From positions 1,364,001-1,428,000 of the forward strand of contig NZ_JABAHI010000008.1 in NCBI RefSeq assembly GCF_012584445.1: a stretch of DNA of 64,000 nt. Reading direction: 5' to 3'. The position numbers were made by a program, and so were the translations under genes. Each line of letters opens with the position of its first letter. Within the stretch, counting starts at the first letter, position 1. The notes under the pieces are model-generated. The model did no database searches. It had not been told where the DNA came from and saw only the letters and a list, made by a program, of their open reading frames with translations. The stretch is from Olsenella sp. KGMB02461. GTDB taxonomy: Bacteria > Actinomycetota > Coriobacteriia > Coriobacteriales > Atopobiaceae. Positions 23,005-57,209 of this stretch are shown in pieces.

Positions 23005-23527
23005 GCCCATGAGCGCTGTCTTGACTGGCTGCATGCAGTCGCTGGGCTATAAGTCTGGCAAGGTAAGCGCGGGTTGGGCGTGGAACAAAATCGCCGGCCC
23101 ACGCGGCCGGGCCCATACCCGGGGCGTCTTCTTGCAAACTCAGACAGCGCCTCGGCTGCCGCTTTTACGCGTGTATCTGGACTCCTCGGTGCTCATCCAG
23201 GACTTCTCTACTGATCACTTGCTGTTCGAGCAGCGCCTCTCAGAAGTAGGACTGCCGGTGGAGCGCGTGGTGTTCCAGCTCTCCAGAACCGTGGGGACCA
23301 CCCCACCAGGAGGGGCCCAGGTGGCTGCGGGCTTCTCGGCAGGACAAAGAGCCGAGAAGCCCGCACCATCCCAACCTATGCCTTTAGAGTCGCTGCCGCC
23401 TTTGAGCAAGGAGCAAAAGCAGCAGGTGGCTCTGATGACTTCGGGGCTTGATGGGGAGCTGCGCCAGGCAGCACTCAAAGCTATGGAAGCGAGTCTGCGA
23501 CGGTCGCAGGGAAAGCTCGAAGGATAG
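22952..23527 (+). CDS. DUF721/DciA-like protein
   Basis: 191 residues from ATG 22952, overlapping the recF 3' end. The N-terminal about 110 residues match the DUF721 build: GWAWNKIAGPRGRAHTRGVFL, then RVYLDSSVLIQDFSTDHLLFEQRL. DciA members of this family assist the replicative helicase DnaB, and the recF-gyrB position is typical for actinobacterial ones. A linker follows that contains an inverted pair of the 13-bp repeat, then a short helical C-terminus. Function by family and context. Confidence 0.75.
   Translation: MEWSDGTNEDPAALATYRPMSAVLTGCMQSLGYKSGKVSAGWAWNKIAGPRGRAHTRGVFLQTQTAPRLPLLRVYLDSSVLIQDFSTDHLLFEQRLSEVGLPVERVVFQLSRTVGTTPPGGAQVAAGFSAGQRAEKPAPSQPMPLESLPPLSKEQKQQVALMTSGLDGELRQAALKAMEASLRRSQGKLEG
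23327..23364. repeat. Inverted pair of the 13-bp word inside the dciA-like gene
   Basis: A perfect 14-bp stem (23327-23340 with 23351-23364) and 10-base loop made of an exact reverse copy (23329-23341) and a one-mismatch forward copy (23350-23362). It is an intrinsic-terminator-shaped hairpin within an open reading frame, without a T-run, in the linker of the protein. Confidence 0.85.
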
Positions 23528-31677: not shown

Positions 31678-31848
31678 ACCGTTCCCCCTTCGCAACCAGG
31701 TGTCACACGTTTCATTGGGGTCATTTTACGACAGCTTTCAGGAAAGTCTTCGAGCGCTTCCTAGTATGGCCTTAAGGGAATGCGAGAGGCCTGTCACTTG
31801 CAACTCTGCCTTACAGGCGGGTCTCTTGCCATAAGGAGAGGATGCGTT

Positions 31849-34368
31849 ATGACTCAGAAGACTAGTATGTCCCGTCGCGCGTTTGTGGTGGGTTCGGCCG
31901 GTGTGGCTGGCGCGTTGGCGCTGACAGGCTGCAACAACGGTGCTCCGCAGGCCCAGGCAGAAAGTTCGGCTGACCTGCCCAAACCGGAGGATTACCCCAT
32001 TGACCCCGACGGCGACGATGTTGAGGCCAAGTGGACCTCCGAGAAGGTCCGCAAAGATGGCTGGACACGCGTGACTAATCCCGATGGTGGTCAAGAATTG
32101 GGTGTGATGGATGAAGGTCGCATCATCCAGGTGGCTGGCCTTGCCTTCCGTGATATGGATGGCGACGGCAAACTGTCGCTCTTCGAAGATTGGCGCCAAT
32201 CCAATGAGGATCGTGCGGCAGATCTGGCTTCCAAGCTTTCTGCCAAGGAGTGCATCCAGCTCATGTGGCATGGCGGTGTGCAGGCTACCATGGATAGGCC
32301 TGGGGTAGAGAGCGATCCCTCCGACATGAGCCTGCTGGATTCTGGCTCCTGTGCGGGTGTCTCCAGGCTTACGCCTAATGAGGATTCCTATGCGTCGGCC
32401 ATCGAGTGGATCAACAGCGTGCAGGAGAAGTGCGAGCAGCGCCCTTGGGGCATTCCTTACCTCAACTCCTACGATCCCTACTTCATCATGGGCATCCCCA
32501 GTACGGTGGGTCTGGCCCCGGCTATGGACAAGGATGTGTGGCGCAAGGCTGGCATGTGGATCGGCCGCGCCTGCCGCGCCACAGGGCACCGCTGCGAATT
32601 GGGGCCTCAGATCGATCTTTATACTCATCCTACAGTAGCCCGTCTGAACGGAGCAGAGACCGAGGATCCTGCACTGGCCCGCGACTTCACGGCAGCCTTT
32701 GGAGGCGGACTGCAGTCTACCTGGGGTGATGACGAAGCTAAAGAGGACTTGGGCTGGGGCAAGGATTCGGTAGGCGTAATGCTCAAACACTTCGTGGGCG
32801 CTGGCGCCATCGAAGGTGGTCGCAACGATCATGGCGACTATGGCAAGTACGACGTGTTCCCCGGTGGCAATTACAAAGCTCACCTGGTGCCCTTCTTGGA
32901 TGGCGGCATGAAGCTGGATTCCAAGACGGGTCAGATGTCGGCAGTGATGCCCAACTACGGCATGCCCTTCTCTGAAGACGGTGAATACGGCCTGCGTGTG
33001 GGCGGCGGTTTTAACAAGAAGCAGCTTTCCATCCTTCGCAATGCCGGCTGGGACGGCATGATCTGCACCGACTGGGGCATCATCACCAGCGGCCGCGGCA
33101 CCGAGAGCATGGATGAGCAGCAGCGCTACAAGCTGATGTTAGATGCCTCCGTAGACCAATATGGCGGCGGCTTTAGTCCTGACGAGGTGGGAATGCCGGT
33201 GTTCGAGCAGCTGGAGAGCGAGCTCGGCGAAGACGAGGCACTAGACCGCGTGCGCGACTCTGCTCGCCGTATCCTTACCTTCATGGCAAATGTCGAGCTT
33301 TTCGACCAGCCTTACTCTGACCGCGACTATGCCAAGTCCATCTTTGATTCCCAAGCAGCTGCTGACTTTGCCCAGGACTGCAACGACAAGTGCGTGATCA
33401 TGCTCAAGAATGCCGGTGGCGTGGTGGCTAAGGATGGTATCTCTGGCAAACCCAAGGCCTATATCCCTCAGACCTATACGCCCTCTTCTTCCAGCTTCTT
33501 TGGAGTCACACCGGCCTCTGCCGCCCCCTGTCTTGACCTGGACGTCTTTGGCGAATACTTCGACGTGGTGACCGATACGGTGGGTGATCCAACAGGAGAT
33601 CCGCTGGAGGGCGAGACGGACAAACAACTTCAAGAGTCCGACGTCCAACGCGTAGCTGATCTCTCTGATGTGGACTATGCCATCATCAAGGTAAAGAACC
33701 CTCAGGATGCCTTGGACGGCGTGCAGGAGAACGAAGATAAATCTGTGACCTATCTGCCTATTTCCCTGCAGTATCGCCCCTACACCGCCAACGGCTCCAA
33801 TGTGAGGCAGACCTCCATTGCAGGCGATCCTTCTGACGGCCAGCAGTGGTATGACCATGGCACTGAGTCCGGCGTGGCCATGGAGAACCGCTCCTATTAT
33901 GGTCAATCCACTCATGCCACCAATGAAAGCGATCTTGATCTGGTGATCTCCACCAAAGAGAAGTTGCCTCAAGGCGCCAAGCTCATCCTTGTGGTAGAAG
34001 CCGATCACCCCATGGTCTTCTCGGATATCGAGCCCTATGCCGACGTGATCCTCATGAGCTGGGCAGGCGACGCCGGCCCCACCGGCTCGGGCTTCAATGT
34101 GAGCCCCAGCTCCTATGCACGCATCATCACTGGTCAGGTAGAGCCCTCCGGCCTGCTTAACTTCCAGATGCCAGCCTCCATGGACACTGTCGAAGCTCAG
34201 CTAGAAGATGTGCCTCGCGACATGGAGTGCTACAAAGACTCCGAGGGTAGCACCTACGACTTCTGCTTTGGCCTTAATTGGAGCGGCAAAATCGACGACG
34301 AGCGTACCAAGATTTATAGTGCAGATCCGCTCACCGCTCCTGAGGCAGAGGTCAAGGCCACTGATTAA
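31849..34368 (+). CDS. Tat-exported GH3 lipoprotein (module 1)
   Basis: 839 residues from ATG 31849 (AAGGAGAGG upstream). The N-terminus is a twin-arginine signal (SRRAFVVGSAG) with lipobox LTGC, so the mature protein is lipid-anchored outside the cell. A calcium-type loop DMDGDGKLSLFEDW lies at about 102-115, as in many GH3 enzymes. The GH3 barrel has LKHFVGAGAIEGGRNDH near 310 and the nucleophile Asp in ICTDWG near 407; the alpha/beta second domain ends with DFCFGLNWSG. The family cleaves terminal beta-glycosides; the substrate cannot be told. Divergent from the module 1 regulator, with its own terminator. 50-60% similar by eye to the other three lipoprotein copies (not computed). Confidence 0.88.
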   Translation: MTQKTSMSRRAFVVGSAGVAGALALTGCNNGAPQAQAESSADLPKPEDYPIDPDGDDVEAKWTSEKVRKDGWTRVTNPDGGQELGVMDEGRIIQVAGLAFRDMDGDGKLSLFEDWRQSNEDRAADLASKLSAKECIQLMWHGGVQATMDRPGVESDPSDMSLLDSGSCAGVSRLTPNEDSYASAIEWINSVQEKCEQRPWGIPYLNSYDPYFIMGIPSTVGLAPAMDKDVWRKAGMWIGRACRATGHRCELGPQIDLYTHPTVARLNGAETEDPALARDFTAAFGGGLQSTWGDDEAKEDLGWGKDSVGVMLKHFVGAGAIEGGRNDHGDYGKYDVFPGGNYKAHLVPFLDGGMKLDSKTGQMSAVMPNYGMPFSEDGEYGLRVGGGFNKKQLSILRNAGWDGMICTDWGIITSGRGTESMDEQQRYKLMLDASVDQYGGGFSPDEVGMPVFEQLESELGEDEALDRVRDSARRILTFMANVELFDQPYSDRDYAKSIFDSQAAADFAQDCNDKCVIMLKNAGGVVAKDGISGKPKAYIPQTYTPSSSSFFGVTPASAAPCLDLDVFGEYFDVVTDTVGDPTGDPLEGETDKQLQESDVQRVADLSDVDYAIIKVKNPQDALDGVQENEDKSVTYLPISLQYRPYTANGSNVRQTSIAGDPSDGQQWYDHGTESGVAMENRSYYGQSTHATNESDLDLVISTKEKLPQGAKLILVVEADHPMVFSDIEPYADVILMSWAGDAGPTGSGFNVSPSSYARIITGQVEPSGLLNFQMPASMDTVEAQLEDVPRDMECYKDSEGSTYDFCFGLNWSGKIDDERTKIYSADPLTAPEAEVKATD

Positions 34369-34386: not shown

Positions 34387-34427
34387 GGGTTTCTCGGCAG
34401 CCTGATGGCGTTCTTACCGAGAAACCC
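34387..34427. repeat. Inverted pair of the 13-bp word after GH3-1
   Basis: Exact reverse copy at 34387-34399 and a one-mismatch forward copy at 34415-34427; 11-bp stem with a 19-base loop, 19 bases after the GH3 stop codon. Confidence 0.85.
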
Positions 34428-42063: not shown

Positions 42064-42102
42064 GCCGCCTTCTGATCTCTTGCAGGCCAGAAGGCGGCTT
42101 TT
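42064..42102 (+). terminator. Terminator of GH3-2
   Basis: 10-bp stem GCCGCCTTCT/AGAAGGCGGC (42064-42073 with 42089-42098) followed by TTTT. The T-run is the start of the next repeat copy. Confidence 0.85.
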
Positions 42103-42138
42103 CTCGGCAGGGAATTAAAAGGGCCTGCCGAGAAACCC
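42097..42138. repeat. Inverted pair of the 13-bp word, convergent gap
   Basis: An exact forward copy (42126-42138) and a reverse copy with two mismatches (42097-42109); stem TTTCTCGGCAG/CTGCCGAGAAA (42100-42110 with 42125-42135). On the minus strand it could end the module 3 kinase transcript. Confidence 0.85.
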
Positions 42139-44250: not shown

Positions 44251-44796
44251 GATGCCTCCCTTCCCAGCCTGCCGCCGCGAGCAAACCACCGTGCAAATGG
44301 CCTTGAATATACCACGATCCATAGATATGACCCGGACTTTGCAAGGGTGGGTTTGCAGACCTCTAGGTATCGAGGTAGCCTAATCCATCATAAAGCAGGG
44401 ACTATAAAGATTCAAAGGCTACAAACCGCAAATTACGACCATTGAGCAACAGGTTGCGACTATAAGGGGCAATAGTTTCTCGGTAGCAGAACTAAAGAAT
44501 TCAAAGTCCTCTAAAATTGCCGTTCAACCCAAAATTCAAACCGTTCATCTTGGGAAACAGTGGGCCACCAGGGCCGCAAACGACAGATTGCGACAGCCAG
44601 GCGCTCATCTACGACAGTGCATCTTTTCAGGCAAGTTACAGGAAATTAGTATCCGGTGTAAGCAAGGAGCGGGGCTTTGGGGAGCCATGTGGGCGTTTTC
44701 CTCGACCTTCGCCCTTCCTATGGGGAAGGGCTCTGCCGCAGGTGAAGGCCTTGCTCGATGCGAAGGGTCGCCATCGAGAGACAAAAGGAGAGAGCT
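44251..44796. other. Module 3 divergent control region
   Basis: 546 non-coding bases between the regulator and GH3-3. It contains two sets of phased direct repeats (see separate entry) and a degenerate 13-bp word (44473-44485). No convincing ORF. Confidence 0.6.
44433..44617 (+). promoter_or_regulatory. Candidate LytTR operators (21-bp phased repeats)
   Basis: TTACGAC (44433) and TTGCGAC (44454) are 21 bp apart. AAACGACAG (44578), TTGCGACAG (44588) and CTACGACAG (44609) are spaced 10 and 21 bp. A 21-bp step between about 9-bp repeats is the known geometry of LytTR binding sites. A single TTACGACAG also lies in the module 1 control region (31726-31734). Assignment to the module 3 regulator is inference. 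Confidence 0.5.
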
Positions 44797-47247
44797 ATGG
44801 GATCCATTAGTCGCCGCGACTTTATGCGCGGCTCGGCAGGCTTGGCCGGACTTGCAGGTGCAGCAGCGCTTACGGGCTGCAACAAAAACGCTCCTCAGGC
44901 AGAGGCGGGCACAGAGGCTGGCTACAAAGAGACCGCCACCGATGCCGGATATGTGCTGGTAGAAAATCCCGATGGCCCCGACCTGGGCTATTGGCCAGAT
45001 TCGGGCATGAAGATCATCGAGGTGGACGGCAAGCCCTTCAAAGACTTCGAAGGCACGGGCGAGCTGGCTCCTTACGCAGACTGGCGCCTTTCCACCGAGG
45101 AGCGCGCCGAGGACCTGGCCGGCCGTCTCTCCATCGAGGAGATCGCAGGCCTCATGTGCTTCTCGGCCCACGTCTTCAAGCTGGACTCCACCGACGTGGC
45201 AGACGAGCAGAAAGAATTCTTGGGCCAGCATGTGCGCGCAGTGTTGAACGCCGCCTCTGGATATCCGGCCTATGAGCAGGCTACCTGGGCAAACAATCTG
45301 CAGGCTTTTGTGGAGGCCTCTGACAACCGCATTCCGGTGAACATCTCCTCCGACCCCCGCAACGGCAGCAACTGCACCGACTGGCCCAACAACCTGGCAT
45401 TGGCCGCCACCTTCGACCCCGAGCGCGCCAAAGAGACCGGCGCCGGCATCGCCAAAGAGATGCGCCAGATGGGCATCACCACGTTCTTGGGACCCCAGAT
45501 CGACGTGTCCACCGACCCCCGTTGGCAGCGCTTCTCGGGCACCTTTGGCGAGGATCCCGCACTGTCCCGCGACATGACCCGCGCACTGGTGGACGGCCTG
45601 CAGTCTACGGTGGACGAGAACGGCGAGGACCAAGGCTGGGGCACCGGATCGCTCATCGCCATGGTGAAGCACTGGCCGGCTGAGGGCCCCGGCGAGGGCG
45701 GCCGCGAAGCCCATCAGGACGGCGGCAAATACGCCGTCTATCCTTCCGGCCACTTCAACATGTGCATGATCCCCTTTGTGGACGGCGCCTTCAAGTTGGA
45801 TGGCAAGACCGGCTCTGCCGCCGAGGTCATGACCTCCTACACCATCGCCTTCGACGAGGACAAGAAGTACGGCGAGCTGGTGGGCTCAGGCTTCTCCAGC
45901 TATAAGATCACCGAGCTTTTGCGCAACAAGTACGGCTTCAAAGGCGCGGCCTGCACCGACTGGGCAGTGTTGAACGACGTCCAGCCTGACGGCGCCAAGT
46001 CCTATCGCTGCTGGGGCGTCGAAGACGGCAGCCAGTGGAATCCTGCCAAGCGCGCCAGCCTGGCTGTGTCTGTAGGCGTGGATCAGATGGGCGGCTGCAA
46101 CGACCCCAGCCTGCTTATGAGCGCCTATGAGGACATGAAGAGCGAGAAGGGCGAGGCAGAAGCCGAGAAGGCCTTCCGCGCTTCCGGCAAGCAGCTGCTC
46201 CTTGGCTACTTCAACACCGGCCTCTTCGAGAATCCCTATGTAGACCCCGAGATCGCCAAGAAGGAGATCGACCTGGGCATCGACGAGGTGAACGCCGCTG
46301 CTCTGGACGCCCAGGTGAAGGCCATCGTCATGCTCAAGAACCATGGAGGCGTCATCAAGCAAGGCTCCGAGGGTTCCAAGCTCAAGGCCTATGTGCCCAT
46401 GCGCTACACCAAGGCCTACCGTGAGAGCGCCACTATGGACACCGCCCCTTGGAAAGACGTGGTCGCCACTTGCGACCTGCCGCTCTCCCAGGGCATGCTC
46501 TCCCAGTACTTCGAGGTGGTCACCGACACTCTGGCAGAGACGCTTACCGGCCCCATGGACGAGTCCGGCGACAAGCCCGTGCCCACCCCCGCTCCCGAGG
46601 ACCTCACCCGTCTCACGGCCGCCGACATCGCCGACGTGGACATCGTCCTGGTGTGCGCCACCGCTCCCAAGAACGCCAGCGCCCGCGGCTCCAAGACCGA
46701 GGACGGCACCTTTGTGCCCCTGTCTGTGCAGTATCGCCCCTACAAGGCCGACAACGAGCATGTGCGCAAGGTCTCTTTGGCCGGCGACTTGCTGGCCGAC
46801 GGCACCCGCGAGAACCGCTCCTACTTTGGCCAAACCTCCCAAGTGGTCAACGAAGAGCAGCTGGATCAGATCCTGGATGCCGCCAAGCTGGCCAAAGAAG
46901 CCGGCAAGCCCTGCGTGGTGGTGCTCGACATCATGCAGCCCATGTGCGTCCATGAGTTCGAAGACCAGGTGGACGCCATCCTTGTCTCCATGTCCGGCTC
47001 CACCGAGGCCGCCTGCCGCGTGGTGGCAGGTCTGGACGAGCCCTCCGGCCTGCTGCCCATGCAGATGCCCAAGGACATGCTGGATGTCGAGGGCCAGCTG
47101 GAAGATTGCTCGCGCGACATGACCTGCTACACCGATGTTGACGGCAACACCTACGACTTTGCCTTTGGCCTCAACTGGTCCGGCAAGATCGACGACGACC
47201 GCGTGGCCAAATATTCCGCTCCGGTGCTCACCGAGCCAGAGGCATAA
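44797..47247 (+). CDS. Tat-exported GH3 lipoprotein (module 3)
   Basis: 816 residues from ATG 44797 (AAAAGGAGAG upstream). Signal SRRDFMRGSAG, lipobox LTGC. It is the most diverged copy: the calcium-type loop is degenerate (DFEGTGELAPYADW) and the barrel motif is VKHWPAEGPGEGGREAH, closer to classical GH3 enzymes. It also has the histidine/arginine region ISSDPRNGSNCTDWP and FLGPQIDVSTDPRW with FGEDPALS. Nucleophile Asp in AACTDWAVL. C-terminus DFAFGLNWSG. Probably a different specificity from the other copies. A strong terminator made from the 13-bp word core follows. Confidence 0.88.
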   Translation: MGSISRRDFMRGSAGLAGLAGAAALTGCNKNAPQAEAGTEAGYKETATDAGYVLVENPDGPDLGYWPDSGMKIIEVDGKPFKDFEGTGELAPYADWRLSTEERAEDLAGRLSIEEIAGLMCFSAHVFKLDSTDVADEQKEFLGQHVRAVLNAASGYPAYEQATWANNLQAFVEASDNRIPVNISSDPRNGSNCTDWPNNLALAATFDPERAKETGAGIAKEMRQMGITTFLGPQIDVSTDPRWQRFSGTFGEDPALSRDMTRALVDGLQSTVDENGEDQGWGTGSLIAMVKHWPAEGPGEGGREAHQDGGKYAVYPSGHFNMCMIPFVDGAFKLDGKTGSAAEVMTSYTIAFDEDKKYGELVGSGFSSYKITELLRNKYGFKGAACTDWAVLNDVQPDGAKSYRCWGVEDGSQWNPAKRASLAVSVGVDQMGGCNDPSLLMSAYEDMKSEKGEAEAEKAFRASGKQLLLGYFNTGLFENPYVDPEIAKKEIDLGIDEVNAAALDAQVKAIVMLKNHGGVIKQGSEGSKLKAYVPMRYTKAYRESATMDTAPWKDVVATCDLPLSQGMLSQYFEVVTDTLAETLTGPMDESGDKPVPTPAPEDLTRLTAADIADVDIVLVCATAPKNASARGSKTEDGTFVPLSVQYRPYKADNEHVRKVSLAGDLLADGTRENRSYFGQTSQVVNEEQLDQILDAAKLAKEAGKPCVVVLDIMQPMCVHEFEDQVDAILVSMSGSTEAACRVVAGLDEPSGLLPMQMPKDMLDVEGQLEDCSRDMTCYTDVDGNTYDFAFGLNWSGKIDDDRVAKYSAPVLTEPEA

Positions 47248-47326: not shown

Positions 47327-47359
47327 GGGCCGAGAAGTGCGAGCTTCTCGGCCCTTTTT
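47327..47359 (+). terminator. Terminator of GH3-3, built from the 13-bp word core
   Basis: 11-bp perfect stem GGGCCGAGAAG/CTTCTCGGCCC (47327-47337 with 47344-47354), 6-base loop, TTTTT. Both arms carry the GCCGAGAA core of the repeat. Confidence 0.92.
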
Positions 47360-48159: not shown

Positions 48160-50595
48160 ATGGGATCCATCAGCCGCCGCGACTTCATGTTGGGTTCTGC
48201 AGGATTGGCAGGCTTGGCGGGCACATTGGCCCTCACCGGCTGCAATGGCAGCCCCCAAGCCGCTGCCGACCCTGCGGCAAACCTGCCTAAGCCCGAAGAC
48301 TACCCCATCGATCCCGACGGCGACGACGTCGAGGCCAAGTGGACCAGCGAGAAGATCCGCAAAGACCAGTGGACTCGCGTCACCAACCCCGACGGCGGCG
48401 CCGAGCTGGGCGTCATGGACGAGGCTCGCATCATCCAGGTGGGAGGCCTCGCCTTCCGCGACATGAACGGCAATGGCAAGCTGGACTTATGGGAAGACTG
48501 GCGCCAGCCGGCCGATGAGCGCGCCAAGGCGTTGGCAGCCTCTCTCACCGCCGAGCAGTGCTTCCCTCTGGTATGGGCCGGCGGCACCCAGTCCAGCTCT
48601 ACCGAGACCGACACCTCGGCTATGGACTACATCGAGGCAGGAAGCCGCGCTGGCGTCTCCCGCCTGCAGTCCACCATCGATACCTACGCCACCGACGTGG
48701 AGTGGATCAACAAGGTGCAGACGGTCTGCGAGCAGAGCGAGCTGGGCATCCCTTACCTCAACTACTCCGACCCCTACGTCCTCTTTGGCGTTCCTTCCTC
48801 GGTGAGCCTGGCGGCTGCCATGGACAAGGACGTCTGGCGCAAGGCCGGCATGTGGCAAGCGCGCGCCTGGCGTGCCACCGGCGTGCGTATGGAGCTGGGC
48901 CCGCAGATCGACGTCTACTCCAACCCCATTGGCACCCGTCTTTCTGGCTCCGTTTCTGAAGACCCCGCACTGAACCGCGACTTCGCTGCAGCCTTTGGCG
49001 GCGGCATGCAGTCTACCTGGGGCGATGACGAGGCTACCGACGACCAGGGCTGGGGCAAGGATTCCTGCGCAGTCATGCTCAAGCACTTCGCCGGCGAAGG
49101 CTCCAACGAGGGCGGTCGCGACGACCACTCCGACTCCGGCAAGTGGAACGTCTTCCCGGGCTCGAACTTCAACGCCCACCTGGTGCCTTTCCTGGACGGC
49201 GGAATGAAGCTGGACTCCAAGACCGAGCAGATGGCTGCCGTCATGCCCTGCTACGGCATCGCCTACGACCCCAACGATCCCGATGGCTTGGGCGAGCATG
49301 TGGGCAGCGCTTATTCCACCCACAACATCTCGATCCTTCGCAACGCCGGTTGGGACGGCCTGCTCTGCACCGACTGGATGATCTTGGATGGCATCCAGCA
49401 CGGCATGCAGAACGTGGAGAAGCCCGACCGCTTCGCCAAGCTCATGAACAACACCATCTCCCAGCACGGCGGCTCCTTCGAGCCCGACGTGGCCAAGGAA
49501 GCCTATGACGTCATGGTCAAGGCCGACGGCGAGGACAAGGCGCTGGCCACCCTTCAAGAGAACTGCCGCCGCATCTTCAAGGCCATGGTGCTGGTGAACC
49601 TCTTTGACCAGCCCTACTCCGACCGCGATGCCGCCAAGGAGATCCTGGAGAACGCCAACGCAGCCGCCTTTGGCGCCGAGACCGCCGACAAGTGCGTGGT
49701 CATGCTCAAGAACAAGGGCGACGCCATCTCCAAGGACGGCCTCAAGGGCAAGGTCTACGTGCCTCAAAAGTTCACTCCGGCGCGGGAGAGCTTCTTTGGC
49801 TCCTCGCCTGCCATGGTGGCCCCGGTAGTGGAGCTGGGCGACGGCTTTGACATCGTCACCGACCACGTGGCCGACGGCGATCCCAACGAGAACTCTGTCA
49901 CCGCCCTCACCAAGGAGGAGCTGGCCGACGTGAGCTATGCCGTGGTAGGCATCCACAACCCTCAGGACGCCTATCAGGGCGTCGAGGGCGGCCCGGACTT
50001 CATGAGCATCGTCATGGGCACCGAGCCCGCCCCTGGCCCCTATTGGAAGCCGCTCTCCCTGCAGTATCGCCCCTTCAAGGCCGACGGCGACTACGTGCGC
50101 AAGGAGTCTTTGAACCCCAAGGACGAGTTTGGCGAGTACGTCAACCGCTCCGTCTATGGCGCCGAGACCCATGCCACCAACGAGGCTGATCTGGACCTGG
50201 TGCTCTCCGTCAAAGAGAAGCTGCCCGAGGGCGCCAAGCTCATCGTGTGCATCGACGCCGATCGCCCCATGTGCTTTGGCGAGCTGGAGCCAGCCGCAGA
50301 CGCCATTCTCTTCACCTACAGCAAGCTCTCGGACGACCAGTTCTCCCACATCCTCTCCGGCAAGGTGGAGCCCTCCGGCTTGCTGTCCCATCAGCAGCCC
50401 AAGGACATGGAGCAGACCTTCGTCCAAAACGAGGACGTGCCTCGCGACATGGAGCCCTACACCGACTCCGAGGGCAACGCCTACGACTTCGCCTTTGGCC
50501 TCAACTGGTCCGGCAAGATCGACGACGACCGCGTGAAGACCTACTCGGCAGATCCTTTGACCACGCCTGAGACCGAGGTCAAGGCTGACGCCTAG
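48160..50595 (+). CDS. Tat-exported GH3 lipoprotein (fourth copy, no own regulator pair)
   Basis: 811 residues, CAAAGGAGAG upstream. Signal SRRDFMLGSAG, lipobox LTGC. Loop DMNGNGKLDLWEDW, LKHFAGEGSNEGGRDDH, nucleophile in LLCTDWMIL, C-terminus DFAFGLNWSG. Very close to the module 1 and 2 enzymes in the first 130 residues (KPEDYPIDPDGDDVEAKW is shared almost word for word). It stands without a divergent kinase/regulator pair, so it may be controlled by one of the three in the region or be constitutive. Confidence 0.88.
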   Translation: MGSISRRDFMLGSAGLAGLAGTLALTGCNGSPQAAADPAANLPKPEDYPIDPDGDDVEAKWTSEKIRKDQWTRVTNPDGGAELGVMDEARIIQVGGLAFRDMNGNGKLDLWEDWRQPADERAKALAASLTAEQCFPLVWAGGTQSSSTETDTSAMDYIEAGSRAGVSRLQSTIDTYATDVEWINKVQTVCEQSELGIPYLNYSDPYVLFGVPSSVSLAAAMDKDVWRKAGMWQARAWRATGVRMELGPQIDVYSNPIGTRLSGSVSEDPALNRDFAAAFGGGMQSTWGDDEATDDQGWGKDSCAVMLKHFAGEGSNEGGRDDHSDSGKWNVFPGSNFNAHLVPFLDGGMKLDSKTEQMAAVMPCYGIAYDPNDPDGLGEHVGSAYSTHNISILRNAGWDGLLCTDWMILDGIQHGMQNVEKPDRFAKLMNNTISQHGGSFEPDVAKEAYDVMVKADGEDKALATLQENCRRIFKAMVLVNLFDQPYSDRDAAKEILENANAAAFGAETADKCVVMLKNKGDAISKDGLKGKVYVPQKFTPARESFFGSSPAMVAPVVELGDGFDIVTDHVADGDPNENSVTALTKEELADVSYAVVGIHNPQDAYQGVEGGPDFMSIVMGTEPAPGPYWKPLSLQYRPFKADGDYVRKESLNPKDEFGEYVNRSVYGAETHATNEADLDLVLSVKEKLPEGAKLIVCIDADRPMCFGELEPAADAILFTYSKLSDDQFSHILSGKVEPSGLLSHQQPKDMEQTFVQNEDVPRDMEPYTDSEGNAYDFAFGLNWSGKIDDDRVKTYSADPLTTPETEVKADA

Positions 50596-53763: not shown

Positions 53764-56295
53764 ATGGCCTACGAGGAGCTCATTAGCTCGATGACATTGG
53801 AAGAGAAGTGCGCGCTTCTCTCAGGTGGGGACGCCTTTGGCACCTACCCCATGGCTCGCCACGCCATTCCTCGCATGCAGTTCTCCGATGGCCCCCACGG
53901 CCTGCGCGTGCAGGCTGCAGGCGCGAACCACCTGGGCATTGGCGGCTCTCTGCCCGCCACCTGCTTTCCCACCGCCGCCACCGTGGCCAACAGCTGGAAC
54001 CCCAAGCTGGGCGAAGCTTTAGGCGAGGCGCTGGGCGAGGAGGCGCTGGCCCAAAAGGTGGACGTGGTGTTGGGGCCTGGCCTCAATATCAAGCGCAACC
54101 CTCTGTGCGGCCGCAACTTCGAGTATTTCTCGGAAGACCCGCTGCTGGCGGGCAAGATGGCCGCTGGCTATGTGAGGGGCATCCAATCCAAGGGGGTCTC
54201 TGCCTGCCCTAAGCACTTTGCGGTGAACAGCCAGGAGACCCGCCGCATGGCCTCGGACTCCGTGGTGGACGAGCGCACGCTGCGCGAGATCTACCTGGCG
54301 GGCTTCGAACGGGTGGTCGAAGAGGCCCATCCTGCCTGCATCATGAGCAGCTATAACCTGGTCAACGGCACCTATGTGAACGAGGACCCCTATCTGCTTC
54401 GCCAGATACTGCGCGACGAGTGGGGCTTCGACGGCGCCGTGGTCACCGACTGGGTCGCCAGCCACGACCACCCCGCCGCGGTCAAGTGCGGCTCTGACTT
54501 CGAGATGCCGGCTCCCGGCATAGGCTCTGTGCGCGAGCTGGTGGAGTCGGTGCGCGACGGGCGCGTGAGCGAGTCTGTGATAGACGCGCGGGTAGAGGAG
54601 TGCCTGAAGCTTATCTTCGCCACCACTGCCCATACCCGTGCGGCGGGCAGTGAATTTGACGCGCAGGCTCACCATCGCCTGGCAGAGACCGTCGCCGCCG
54701 AGTCCTGCGTGCTGCTCAAGAACCAGGACGACCTGTTGCCTTTGGCTCCCGGCACCAAGGTGGCCCTGGTGGGCGACTTTGCCGCAGAGCCGCGCTATCA
54801 AGGCGCCGGCTCGTCGTTGGTGAACTCGGTCTACCTCAACAAGCTGGTGGATTGCATCCGCGACTACGATCTTGACTACGTGGGCTTCGAGCCAGGCTTC
54901 GACCGATGCGGCCCCGCCAATGCCGAGAAGGCCGCCGACGCCTGCCAGCTGGCCTCCCGAGCCGACGTGGTCTTGCTGTGCCTAGGCTTGGACGAGACCC
55001 GGGAGACCGAGGGCGCCGAGCGCCAGGACATGTGCCTGGCCTCTTCCCAGGTTGCCCTGGTGGGCCAGTTGGCGGCAGTGAACCCCAATATCGCGGTGCT
55101 CTTGTCGGCAGGGGCGCCCGTGGAGACGGGCTGGGACAAAGACGTCAAGGCGCTGGTGCATCTGTGTCTGGGCGGCCAGGCAGGGGCTCGCGCGGCCTTG
55201 GACGTGGTCTGTGGGTTGGTGAACCCCTCGGGCAAGCTGGCCGAGACCTGGCCCCATGCCCTGGCCGACACCGCTACCGCAGGCTTCTATCCTGCCGAGA
55301 AGAAGCATGCCCTCTATAAAGAGGCTCTGTACGTGGGTTATCGCTACTTCGATAGCGCGCAGGTGGATGTGGCCTATCCCTTTGGCTTTGGCTTGTCCTA
55401 TACCACCTTTGACTATTCTGATCTGCAAGTGGATGTGCAAGATGGGCCAGACCCGCAGGTGAAGGTGTCGTGCGCTGTTGCCAACACGGGACCTGTGGCC
55501 GGAGCCGAGGTGGTGCAGCTCTACGTGGCAAAGCCCGAGGGCGACGTCTTTAGGCCGGCCCAAGAGCTTCGCGCCTTTGACAAGGTGGTGCTGGAGCCGG
55601 GGCAGAGCGCGCGGGTGAGCTTTGAGCTTTCCGGGCGAGACTTTGCCTACTACCACGTGGGGAACTCGGATTGGGAGATCGAAGGCGGCACCTACGAGCT
55701 GCGGGTTTCTGCCTCCTCGCGGGATGTGCGCCTTAGGGCCGCCGTCGAGCTCTCTGGCACCGGCGCGGCCAACCCCTATGAGGGCCGCGATGTGGAGGTC
55801 TACAAGCGCGCCCAGGTGAGCCAGGTCTCAGACGAGGCCTTCGCGGCCATCTTGGGTCATCCGGTGCCTTCTCCCAAGGTCACCTTGGGTCCCGACCTGT
55901 GCATTCGCGACCTCAACCACGGCCGAAGCCCCCTCTTCTGGTTGGTGTGGCTCATCTTGGACCGGCTGGTGAAGGCTTCCTACAAGAAAGGCGCGCCCGA
56001 CCTGAACCTGCTCTTCATCTACAACATGCCGCTCCACGGCCTGGCCAAAAACGCCGGCGGCCTGGTATCGCCCCAGATGATCGATGCCCTGGTCTTGGAG
56101 ATCCGCGGCTTTTGGGTGGTGGGCCTGTTGCTCTTCATTGGCCGCTTCTTCACCAACCTGGCCAAAAACTCCCGCATCGCCGCAGCGCTCAAAGAGGCTG
56201 CTGCCAAGGCTGGCGCCGGGCCTGCCGCGTCCCACCATGCTTCTGACGCCTCTGAGCACGACGCCTCCGCCCCTGGCGGCGCCACCTTCGCCTAA
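53764..56295 (+). CDS. GH3 glycosidase with C-terminal membrane-associated extension
   Basis: 843 residues. Classical order: barrel with MTLEEKCALLSGGDAF, SDGPHGLR, FEYFSEDPLLAGK, PKHFAVNSQETRR and the nucleophile in GAVVTDWVASHDHP (about 241). The second domain has ETEGAERQDM (candidate acid/base Glu), and a fibronectin-like domain follows. There is no signal peptide. After the enzyme, the last about 150 residues hold two hydrophobic stretches (LFWLVWLILDRLV and FWVVGLLLFIGRFF) and an Ala-rich tail. Most likely a beta-glucosidase-type enzyme held at the inner membrane face, acting on imported glycosides; the direction is inference. A repeat-like copy (54921-54933, one mismatch) encodes NAEKA. 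Confidence 0.88.
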   Translation: MAYEELISSMTLEEKCALLSGGDAFGTYPMARHAIPRMQFSDGPHGLRVQAAGANHLGIGGSLPATCFPTAATVANSWNPKLGEALGEALGEEALAQKVDVVLGPGLNIKRNPLCGRNFEYFSEDPLLAGKMAAGYVRGIQSKGVSACPKHFAVNSQETRRMASDSVVDERTLREIYLAGFERVVEEAHPACIMSSYNLVNGTYVNEDPYLLRQILRDEWGFDGAVVTDWVASHDHPAAVKCGSDFEMPAPGIGSVRELVESVRDGRVSESVIDARVEECLKLIFATTAHTRAAGSEFDAQAHHRLAETVAAESCVLLKNQDDLLPLAPGTKVALVGDFAAEPRYQGAGSSLVNSVYLNKLVDCIRDYDLDYVGFEPGFDRCGPANAEKAADACQLASRADVVLLCLGLDETRETEGAERQDMCLASSQVALVGQLAAVNPNIAVLLSAGAPVETGWDKDVKALVHLCLGGQAGARAALDVVCGLVNPSGKLAETWPHALADTATAGFYPAEKKHALYKEALYVGYRYFDSAQVDVAYPFGFGLSYTTFDYSDLQVDVQDGPDPQVKVSCAVANTGPVAGAEVVQLYVAKPEGDVFRPAQELRAFDKVVLEPGQSARVSFELSGRDFAYYHVGNSDWEIEGGTYELRVSASSRDVRLRAAVELSGTGAANPYEGRDVEVYKRAQVSQVSDEAFAAILGHPVPSPKVTLGPDLCIRDLNHGRSPLFWLVWLILDRLVKASYKKGAPDLNLLFIYNMPLHGLAKNAGGLVSPQMIDALVLEIRGFWVVGLLLFIGRFFTNLAKNSRIAAALKEAAAKAGAGPAASHHASDASEHDASAPGGATFA

Positions 56296-56366: not shown

Positions 56367-56906
56367 ATGAGCTTCAAAACCTGGACCGAGGAGCATCAAA
56401 GCCTCTGGGAGTTCATCAAGTTCAACATCTTGTCCAACGTCTCCACCGCCACCCGATTTGTGGCGACCTGGGTGGGCACCTGGCTCTTTGTGAACACCCT
56501 GGCGCTCACGGCTCCCTTCTCCTTCTTGATCTTCAACTACACGTCGTCGGGCTCCAACGGCCTGGGAGGCTTTCTCACCTTCCTTCTGGCCGAGGTGCTC
56601 GCCCAAGTGGTGAACTTCTTCGTGCAGATGAAGTTCGTCTTCAAGAGCCAGGCCTCCTTTGCCACCGCCGCACCTAAGTTCGCCGTGCTGGCTGTGCTCA
56701 TCGTGGTGGTGAACCTGGTGCTTCCGGGCTACGTCACCAACTTCTGCATCGGCCTGGGCCTAGGCGCCGAGCTGGCCGCCACCGTCGCCTCCGTGGTCAA
56801 CACCTTGCTGGCGGTCATCGTGAGCTTCCCGGTGCTCAAGTTCTGGATCACCCCCAGCCAGGACAGCGACTCTCCGGCCTCCGGCGATCCTGCAGCCACC
56901 GTCTAG
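56367..56906 (+). CDS. GtrA-like membrane protein
   Basis: 179 residues, GAGGAGG upstream. Four membrane helices with the GtrA pattern: FIKFNILSNVSTATRFVATW at the start, NFFVQMKFVFKSQ in the middle (the conserved N-x-x-x-x-x-x-F-F region) and two helices after it. GtrA-type proteins are linked to transfer of glycosyl or prenyl-phosphate sugars in cell-wall and O-antigen decoration. 71 bases after the GH3 gene, likely the same transcript, tying it to glycan work. Confidence 0.82.
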   Translation: MSFKTWTEEHQSLWEFIKFNILSNVSTATRFVATWVGTWLFVNTLALTAPFSFLIFNYTSSGSNGLGGFLTFLLAEVLAQVVNFFVQMKFVFKSQASFATAAPKFAVLAVLIVVVNLVLPGYVTNFCIGLGLGAELAATVASVVNTLLAVIVSFPVLKFWITPSQDSDSPASGDPAATV

Positions 56907-57209
56907 GCGCACTCTCTCCTTGCCGAGAAGCCTCAACCCTTCAGATCAGGGGCTTTTGGGTGGAGCGGCAGCTTAAGTGGGCGTGGGGACGCCCCCAGCG
57001 TGAAGGCACGGAACGATACGGGCTTCTCGGCAACAAGGTGTGCCGAGAAGCCCGTTTTGCATGGAGATGGGGCGTGGGGGAATAAGGCGGCGCTTCTTGG
57101 ATCTTAGGGATTCCCGCTGCTTTATGGGGATTTGTGGCAGGGAGTGTGGCTGGGGGCCTATGGGTTTAACGTAGGTTGGTTAGTGTAGATGTGTCTTAGA
57201 GGGGGTCTC
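56907..57209. other. GtrA downstream region
   Basis: About 300 bases with a single 13-bp word (56921-56933, one mismatch), then the terminator made by two exact copies (57018-57059), then the upstream region of the next small gene. Nothing else seen. Confidence 0.6.
57018..57059 (+). terminator. Terminator formed by two exact copies of the 13-bp word
   Basis: 15-bp perfect stem with an 8-base loop: reverse copy 57020-57032, forward copy 57041-57053, then TTTT. The clearest inverted pair in the window. Confidence 0.93.

Follow-up and report, generated by a model that had tools for sequence, protein, structure and literature searches.

Inverted pairs of DNA uptake sequences are described as intrinsic terminators in Neisseria and the Pasteurellaceae (Kingsford et al. 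2007, PMC1852404). The excerpt of that study used here gives 50 and 25 inverted pairs (75) within 10 nt for H. influenzae, with 1,471 copies of the word, and 13 and 8 (21) within 10 nt for P. multocida, with 927 copies. In Neisseria the uptake word is bound by ComP, a pilus-borne receptor, according to an excerpt of a further source (PMC6370729). An Atopobiaceae genome rich in the word TGCCGAGAA resembles the systems of the first excerpt (PMC1852404) in that an abundant word lies on both strands, close inverted pairs are in excess with direct pairs nearly absent, the pairs lie after genes and their spacing spares the extended motif. It differs from them in belonging to the Actinomycetota, in having a different word and in mainly lacking T tails at its pairs. 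The original prediction had likened hairpins built from this word to what uptake sequences do in other bacteria, and comparison with the same excerpt (PMC1852404) bears out this resemblance to uptake-sequence terminators. The probable account of TGCCGAGAA is that of an uptake-like word with an additional tail-type use. Some head-to-head copies downstream of genes would, on this account, have been retained as RNA hairpins, and as terminators if a U-tract comes next.

The word and its distribution

The host genome comprises 2,194,038 bases (2.19 Mb) in 13 contigs, and the window, the whole 64,000-nucleotide stretch of DNA analysed, corresponds to C12:1364001-1428000. Among 46 gyrA relatives, found in a collection from which the host genome itself may be absent, the top match was Kribbibacterium absianum (80% identity), and the close ones were mainly Atopobiaceae. 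Two relatives were used for comparison: G001, a sister species in the same genus (93% nucleotide identity over long alignments totalling 0.53 Mb of the fetched stretches), and G038, a relative from another family. Genes were modelled with a simple in-house caller. Pairs were defined as exact 9-mers with 2-30 nt between them, TTCTCGGCA followed by TGCCGAGAA being an RF pair and the opposite order an FR pair. Whole-genome pair counts are unbiased; those from the 1.264 Mb sample of own sequence are biased because certain stretches were chosen to contain RF pairs, a choice that alters the number of pairs and not directly their location.

Genome-wide, TGCCGAGAA has 739 copies (350 and 389 by strand) compared with 24 (4 and 20) for its reversed control; within the 1.264 Mb, 417 copies were counted vs 18.9 expected under a third-order model. 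The leading variants there are TACCGAGAA (77 vs 5.7 expected) and TGCCGATAA (94 vs 8.8). The extended motif, alike in G001 and G038, has a T ahead of the core and a 3' extension RCnC (R at base 1, C at base 4), and is C-rich beyond. Between the host and G001 the word is kept at 90 of 102 coding sites, compared with 411 of 607 for permuted control words (P 1e-5). TGCCGAGAA(RCnC) is described as an abundant, conserved and DNA-uptake-like word of this Atopobiaceae genus, which would presumably serve in uptake itself.

As a highly improbable alternative, the word might be a Chi- or KOPS-like signal for recombination or replication, or else a by-product of codon usage, the pairs being chance neighbours in either case. 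Sense copies in coding sequence do favour one phase (173 of 183, read GCC GAG AA), and certain segments are skewed by strand, with 48 forward and 86 reverse copies in C12:440001-880000 (P 0.0013) and 96 forward and 67 reverse in G001 1-400000 (P 0.03); however, this skew tracks gene direction and resides in the coding copies, the intergenic copies of the two segments standing at 13 to 20 and 33 to 38, respectively. It is confined to some segments, the whole-genome forward and reverse totals being near equal, and the GC skew of the genome is weak and irregular. Also against such a signal are the higher density of the word in intergenic than in coding sequence (0.625 vs 0.262 per kb, first gene models), the conservation of intergenic copies in G001 (51 of 62 sites, compared with 37 of 89 for permuted control words; P 8e-7), and the excess of inverted pairs with direct pairs absent.

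The two relatives carry the word in similar numbers (G001, 733; G038, 767), and the remaining 57 genomes searched contain 6 to 300 copies. Over-represented variants of the core, GGCGAGAAGAAC-like in G015 and CGAGAAGACC-like in G011, were found in 100 kb sampled from each; no such word stood out in 100 kb samples of G018 and G006. Strand counts of the word in the whole genome of G011 are unequal, at 114 and 186. Relatives thus seem to vary one core, with TGCCGAGAA in the host, G001 and G038, as do the dialects of the Neisseriaceae in the portion of their description drawn on (PMC3630211); unlike those dialects, the word here is uptake-like from its sequence only. The host has ComEC, as do most of the 60 genomes searched, itself included (57 in all), and the majority of these have far fewer copies of the word; because ComEC occurs in nearly all of them, it does not explain which genomes carry the word. 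A ComEA-like short ORF adjoins ComEC (by eye), and of the ATPases in the host a PilT-family match lies above the curated cut-off and a TadA-like match below it.

As a separate observation, GCCTACTAAGTAC words cluster, at most five together, within non-coding blocks of approximately 150-200 bases, in G001 as well as in the host; examples, all outside the window, are C12:454679-454842, C12:95148-95311 and C10:130973-131136. TACTAAGTA accounts for 43 words vs 0.7 expected in the 1.264 Mb.

Inverted pairs and their position

The host genome contains 16 inverted pairs (10 RF and 6 FR) vs 3.6 expected under uniform placement, 1.80 for each order (RF P 1.9e-5; FR P 0.01); in a simulation that preserved the densities of the word in coding and in intergenic sequence, 1.264 Mb held 1.18 RF and 1.22 FR. 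Direct pairs at 2-30 nt number 0 genome-wide vs 3.6 expected (P 0.027). G001 has 6 RF, 7 FR and 0 direct pairs, certain of which are orthologous to pairs of the host, and G038 has 10 RF, 49 FR (59 inverted) and 1 direct. The fraction of copies lying within exact inverted pairs is 4.3% in the host and 15.4% in G038. In G038, 11 of the 49 FR pairs, counted by eye, have the same middle, GACCTGC (for example C33:78-120, C46:4150-4192 and C65:20597-20639), and are not independent since they form a repeat family. Unlike in the systems described in the excerpt of PMC1852404, RF rather than +- pairs are somewhat commoner in the host (10 vs 6).

Position separates pairs from single copies. In the sample, with four core variants counted, pair members are intergenic in 39 of 53 cases, the other 14 lying in coding sequence, vs 178 of 700 single copies (P 3e-12). 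A gene 3' end is no more than 150 nt away from 37 of these 39 intergenic members, and from 113 of the 178 singles (P 4e-5). Of the tally suggested with the original prediction, the genome-wide counts give an excess of inverted pairs, and the sample gives a preference of pair members, over singles, for the ends of genes. The arms of the pairs also agree beyond the word: in the 16 RF pairs of the host, six positions beyond the word in each match at 57 of 96 (2000 random draws gave a mean of 37.8 and at most 55), and the corresponding figures are 37 of 72 in G001 (random 27.9, P 0.026) and 69 of 78 in G038 (random 31.2).

The pairs might act at the DNA level only, if two uptake words back to back made the uptake site stronger or symmetric, with the RNA hairpin as an incidental result. 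This is unlikely, given that arm agreement extends beyond the word and that the link to gene 3' ends is closer for pairs than for single words, though it would accommodate the FR spacing of the host, which at 25-26 nt in 4 of 6 pairs spares both 3' extensions, and the location of 7 of the 27 inverted pairs found in the sample with four core variants, which are inside coding sequence. Retention of some word hairpins for their RNA structure is the preferred reading. Because word copies are numerous on both strands, head-to-head copies after a stop codon would give a ready stem; at stems with a U-tract behind them, 57018-57059 and 47327-47359 among them, transcription would most likely end as at an intrinsic terminator, and pairs without one would be 3'-end hairpins, which may terminate weakly or shield the 3' end.

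Word hairpins in the window and at gene ends

The features of the window that bear on this reading are listed in Table 1. Pfam places the GH3 gene before the 47327 hairpin at 44758-47244 and a second GH3 gene at 53764-56292; weaker family 3-like matches lie at 31780-34365 and 48160-50592.

Table 1. Word-related hairpins of the window, with their arms, tails and upstream genes (window coordinates)
Feature	Position	Strand	Basis or remark
5' arm of 57018 hairpin, CGGGC + TTCTCGGCA (reverse word)	57019..57032	+	direct reading
3' arm of 57018 hairpin, TGCCGAGAA + GCCCG (forward word)	57041..57054	+	direct reading
T-run TTTT after 57018 hairpin	57055..57058	+	direct reading; TTTT in G001 too
Gene upstream of 57018 hairpin, GtrA-like membrane protein	56367..56906	+	PF04138, 24.7 bits, just under cut-off of 26.1
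Hairpin, each arm with core GCCGAGAA (first forward, second reverse)	47327..47354	+	fold -24.8 kcal/mol, z -5.7; predicted terminator
T-run TTTTT after 47327 hairpin	47355..47359	+	direct reading
Gene upstream of 47327 hairpin, glycoside hydrolase family 3 (GH3)	44797..47247	+	PF00933, PF01915; gene model
Terminator-shaped hairpin, not word-built	42064..42098	+	terminator scan, fold; tail TTTTC
TTTTCTCGGCA, U-tract of 42064 hairpin, overlapping reverse word TTCTCGGCA (42101-42109)	42099..42109	+	tail-type use
TGCCGAGAA, second member of the 42097-42138 pair	42126..42134	+	no T-run after; lost in G001
Reverse word TTCTCGGCA, 5' arm of longer-loop hairpin	34391..34399	-	direct reading, fold
Variant word TACCGAGAA, 3' arm of the same hairpin	34415..34423	+	then ACCCTT only
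Gene upstream of 34387 hairpin	31849..34368		
Word pair within coding sequence, recF-gyrB interval	23333..23358	+	DciA-like by eye, no Pfam match

The hairpin at 57018-57059, described in the original prediction as two exact word copies with an 8-base loop and a T-run, has exactly these parts, its arms being exact inverted 14-mers that form a 14-bp stem. It lies 112 nt from the stop of the GtrA-like gene, and the RNA of 57010-57062 folds at -32.8 kcal/mol (z -7.1). In the orthologue of G001, the 5' arm is identical and the 3' arm differs at three positions, A to G twice within the stem and T to C once at its top, with which the word is gone. The + strand of the orthologue folds at -30.8 kcal/mol, the A-to-G sites still pairing as G.U, whereas the - strand folds at -23.3 kcal/mol with two mismatches. 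This strand-specific preservation, in a comparison with one sister species, points to a putative RNA hairpin transcribed in the + direction, and the feature is most likely an intrinsic terminator at which transcription would end. Ahead of the hairpin the G001 sequence is different, and the preceding gene may therefore not be the same one in that species. That RNA pairing of the transcribed strand persists after one arm has lost the word further argues against paired words serving as DNA sites only.

The second hairpin, at 47327-47359, was correctly said to use the core in both arms; it has a 12-bp stem and a loop of 4, with a G in place of the T before the core. Given its U-tract, it most likely also ends transcription as an intrinsic terminator. 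Two further pairs had been placed after genes. The one at 42097-42138 exists, but neither strand has a T-run after it, and its role as terminator was mis-assigned: the separate upstream hairpin at 42064-42098 is the terminator-shaped feature. In the alignment with G001 that hairpin is kept, with one C-G pair changed to T-A and two pairs to G.U, and the word pair is lost, the T-run at 42099 staying and the word there being gone. At 34387-34427 a hairpin is indeed present, with an 11-bp stem, one arm formed by the variant word and TT only after the stem; its case as a terminator is weak, and no orthologous pair was found in G001, where the alignment is poor. Two of the four quoted loci thus look like intrinsic terminators, one is weak and one mis-assigned.

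The window holds a further word pair, at 23333-23358, which was rejected as a terminator, being inside coding sequence. Compared with G001, it has four base changes in two codons, and two outer pairs have changed on both sides and are still matched. Such a pattern within a gene is what template switching at inverted repeats could produce, and matched arms in general might be the outcome of this mutational process and not of selection on hairpins. That explanation is distinctly unlikely, as it leaves unexplained both the link of pairs to gene 3' ends and the one-sided, G.U-preserving changes at 57018. In the preferred reading, selection would presumably run towards keeping the RNA stem.

Beyond the window, a T-rich tail follows 4 of 20 strong word hairpins at gene 3' ends of the host vs 158 of 285 other strong hairpins (P 0.002). 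The corresponding proportions are 4 of 7 and 105 of 183 in G001, and 12 of 19 and 24 of 34 in G038, where the hairpin sample consists of stretches selected around RF pairs; these counts are per gene end, such that one hairpin between convergent genes may count twice. A scan for a hairpin followed by a T tail matched 213 of 727 gene ends in the sample; its background is high, since 99 matches were obtained with the same regions on the other strand. Of the 213 predicted intrinsic terminators, 7 have a hairpin containing the word core, one such hairpin being counted on both strands, whereas the excerpt of PMC1852404 gives shares of 16-57% by TransTermHP for its systems. The majority of word pairs in the host are 3'-end hairpins without a U-tract, and 'terminators' fits a minority; the pairs of G038 look like ordinary terminators. 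The prevailing lack of a T tail in the host is a point in favour of the pairs having a role in DNA alone. The original prediction was largely right, with too strong a generalization: the folds, the bias towards positions after stop codons and the RNA structure kept at 57018 agree with word pairs as terminators, and the tail counts and scan speak against this as a rule. Words paired downstream of a gene do not by themselves make a terminator; in the host, word hairpins mainly lack a U-tract.

A possible use of the reverse word as a U-tract

A second, tail-type use of the word was scored from hairpins that end within 6 nt before it; read along the upstream gene, the reverse word is TTCTCGG. At gene 3' ends of the host, such a hairpin precedes 12 of 103 reverse words, compared with 2 of 84 forward words (P 0.023), 290 of 5331 random 3'-end positions (P 0.014) and 18 of 616 reverse words in coding sequence (P 0.0004). 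G001, which has some tail-type sites in common with the host, gave 11 of 87 reverse words vs 1 of 65 forward (P 0.014), 83 of 2400 random (P 0.0003) and 12 of 391 coding reverse (P 0.0008). When stronger hairpins were required, the host retained 7 of 103 reverse words vs 2 of 84 forward (P 0.19, not significant) and 115 of 5331 random positions (P 0.008), and G001 retained 7 of 87 vs 0 of 65 (P 0.02) and 41 of 2400 (P 0.001). Several of the cases read hairpin-TTTTCTCGGCA. Part of this effect could be due to the extended motif, which puts a G-rich stretch ahead of the reverse word, yet the effect is absent from reverse words in coding sequence, which have the same motif. These moderate statistics support the reverse word as a U-tract behind unrelated hairpins: reading YTTCTCGGCA directly after such a hairpin, it would become part of its tail, as at 42099-42109. 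This doubling of the reverse word as a U-tract differs from the systems described in the excerpt of PMC1852404.

A search on uptake sequences in coriobacteria found no paper in the literature collection covered, and a search for the literal word gave none on the subject among the matches listed. Evenly balanced on the evidence is a broader proposal: uptake-sequence dialects with the core CGAGAAR would form a family within the Coriobacteriales, the first known from a Gram-positive phylum according to literature listings, and the word would serve twice over at the ends of genes, as a paired-word stem and as a reverse U-tract behind unrelated hairpins. Paired-word terminators of uptake words are known from two Gram-negative families, and a similar word with dialects in the Actinomycetota would suggest an independent origin of DNA self-marking. 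TGCCGAGAA provides a concrete word for transformation tests in the Atopobiaceae. Use of the reverse word as a U-tract would let a DNA signal and an RNA signal share letters simply.
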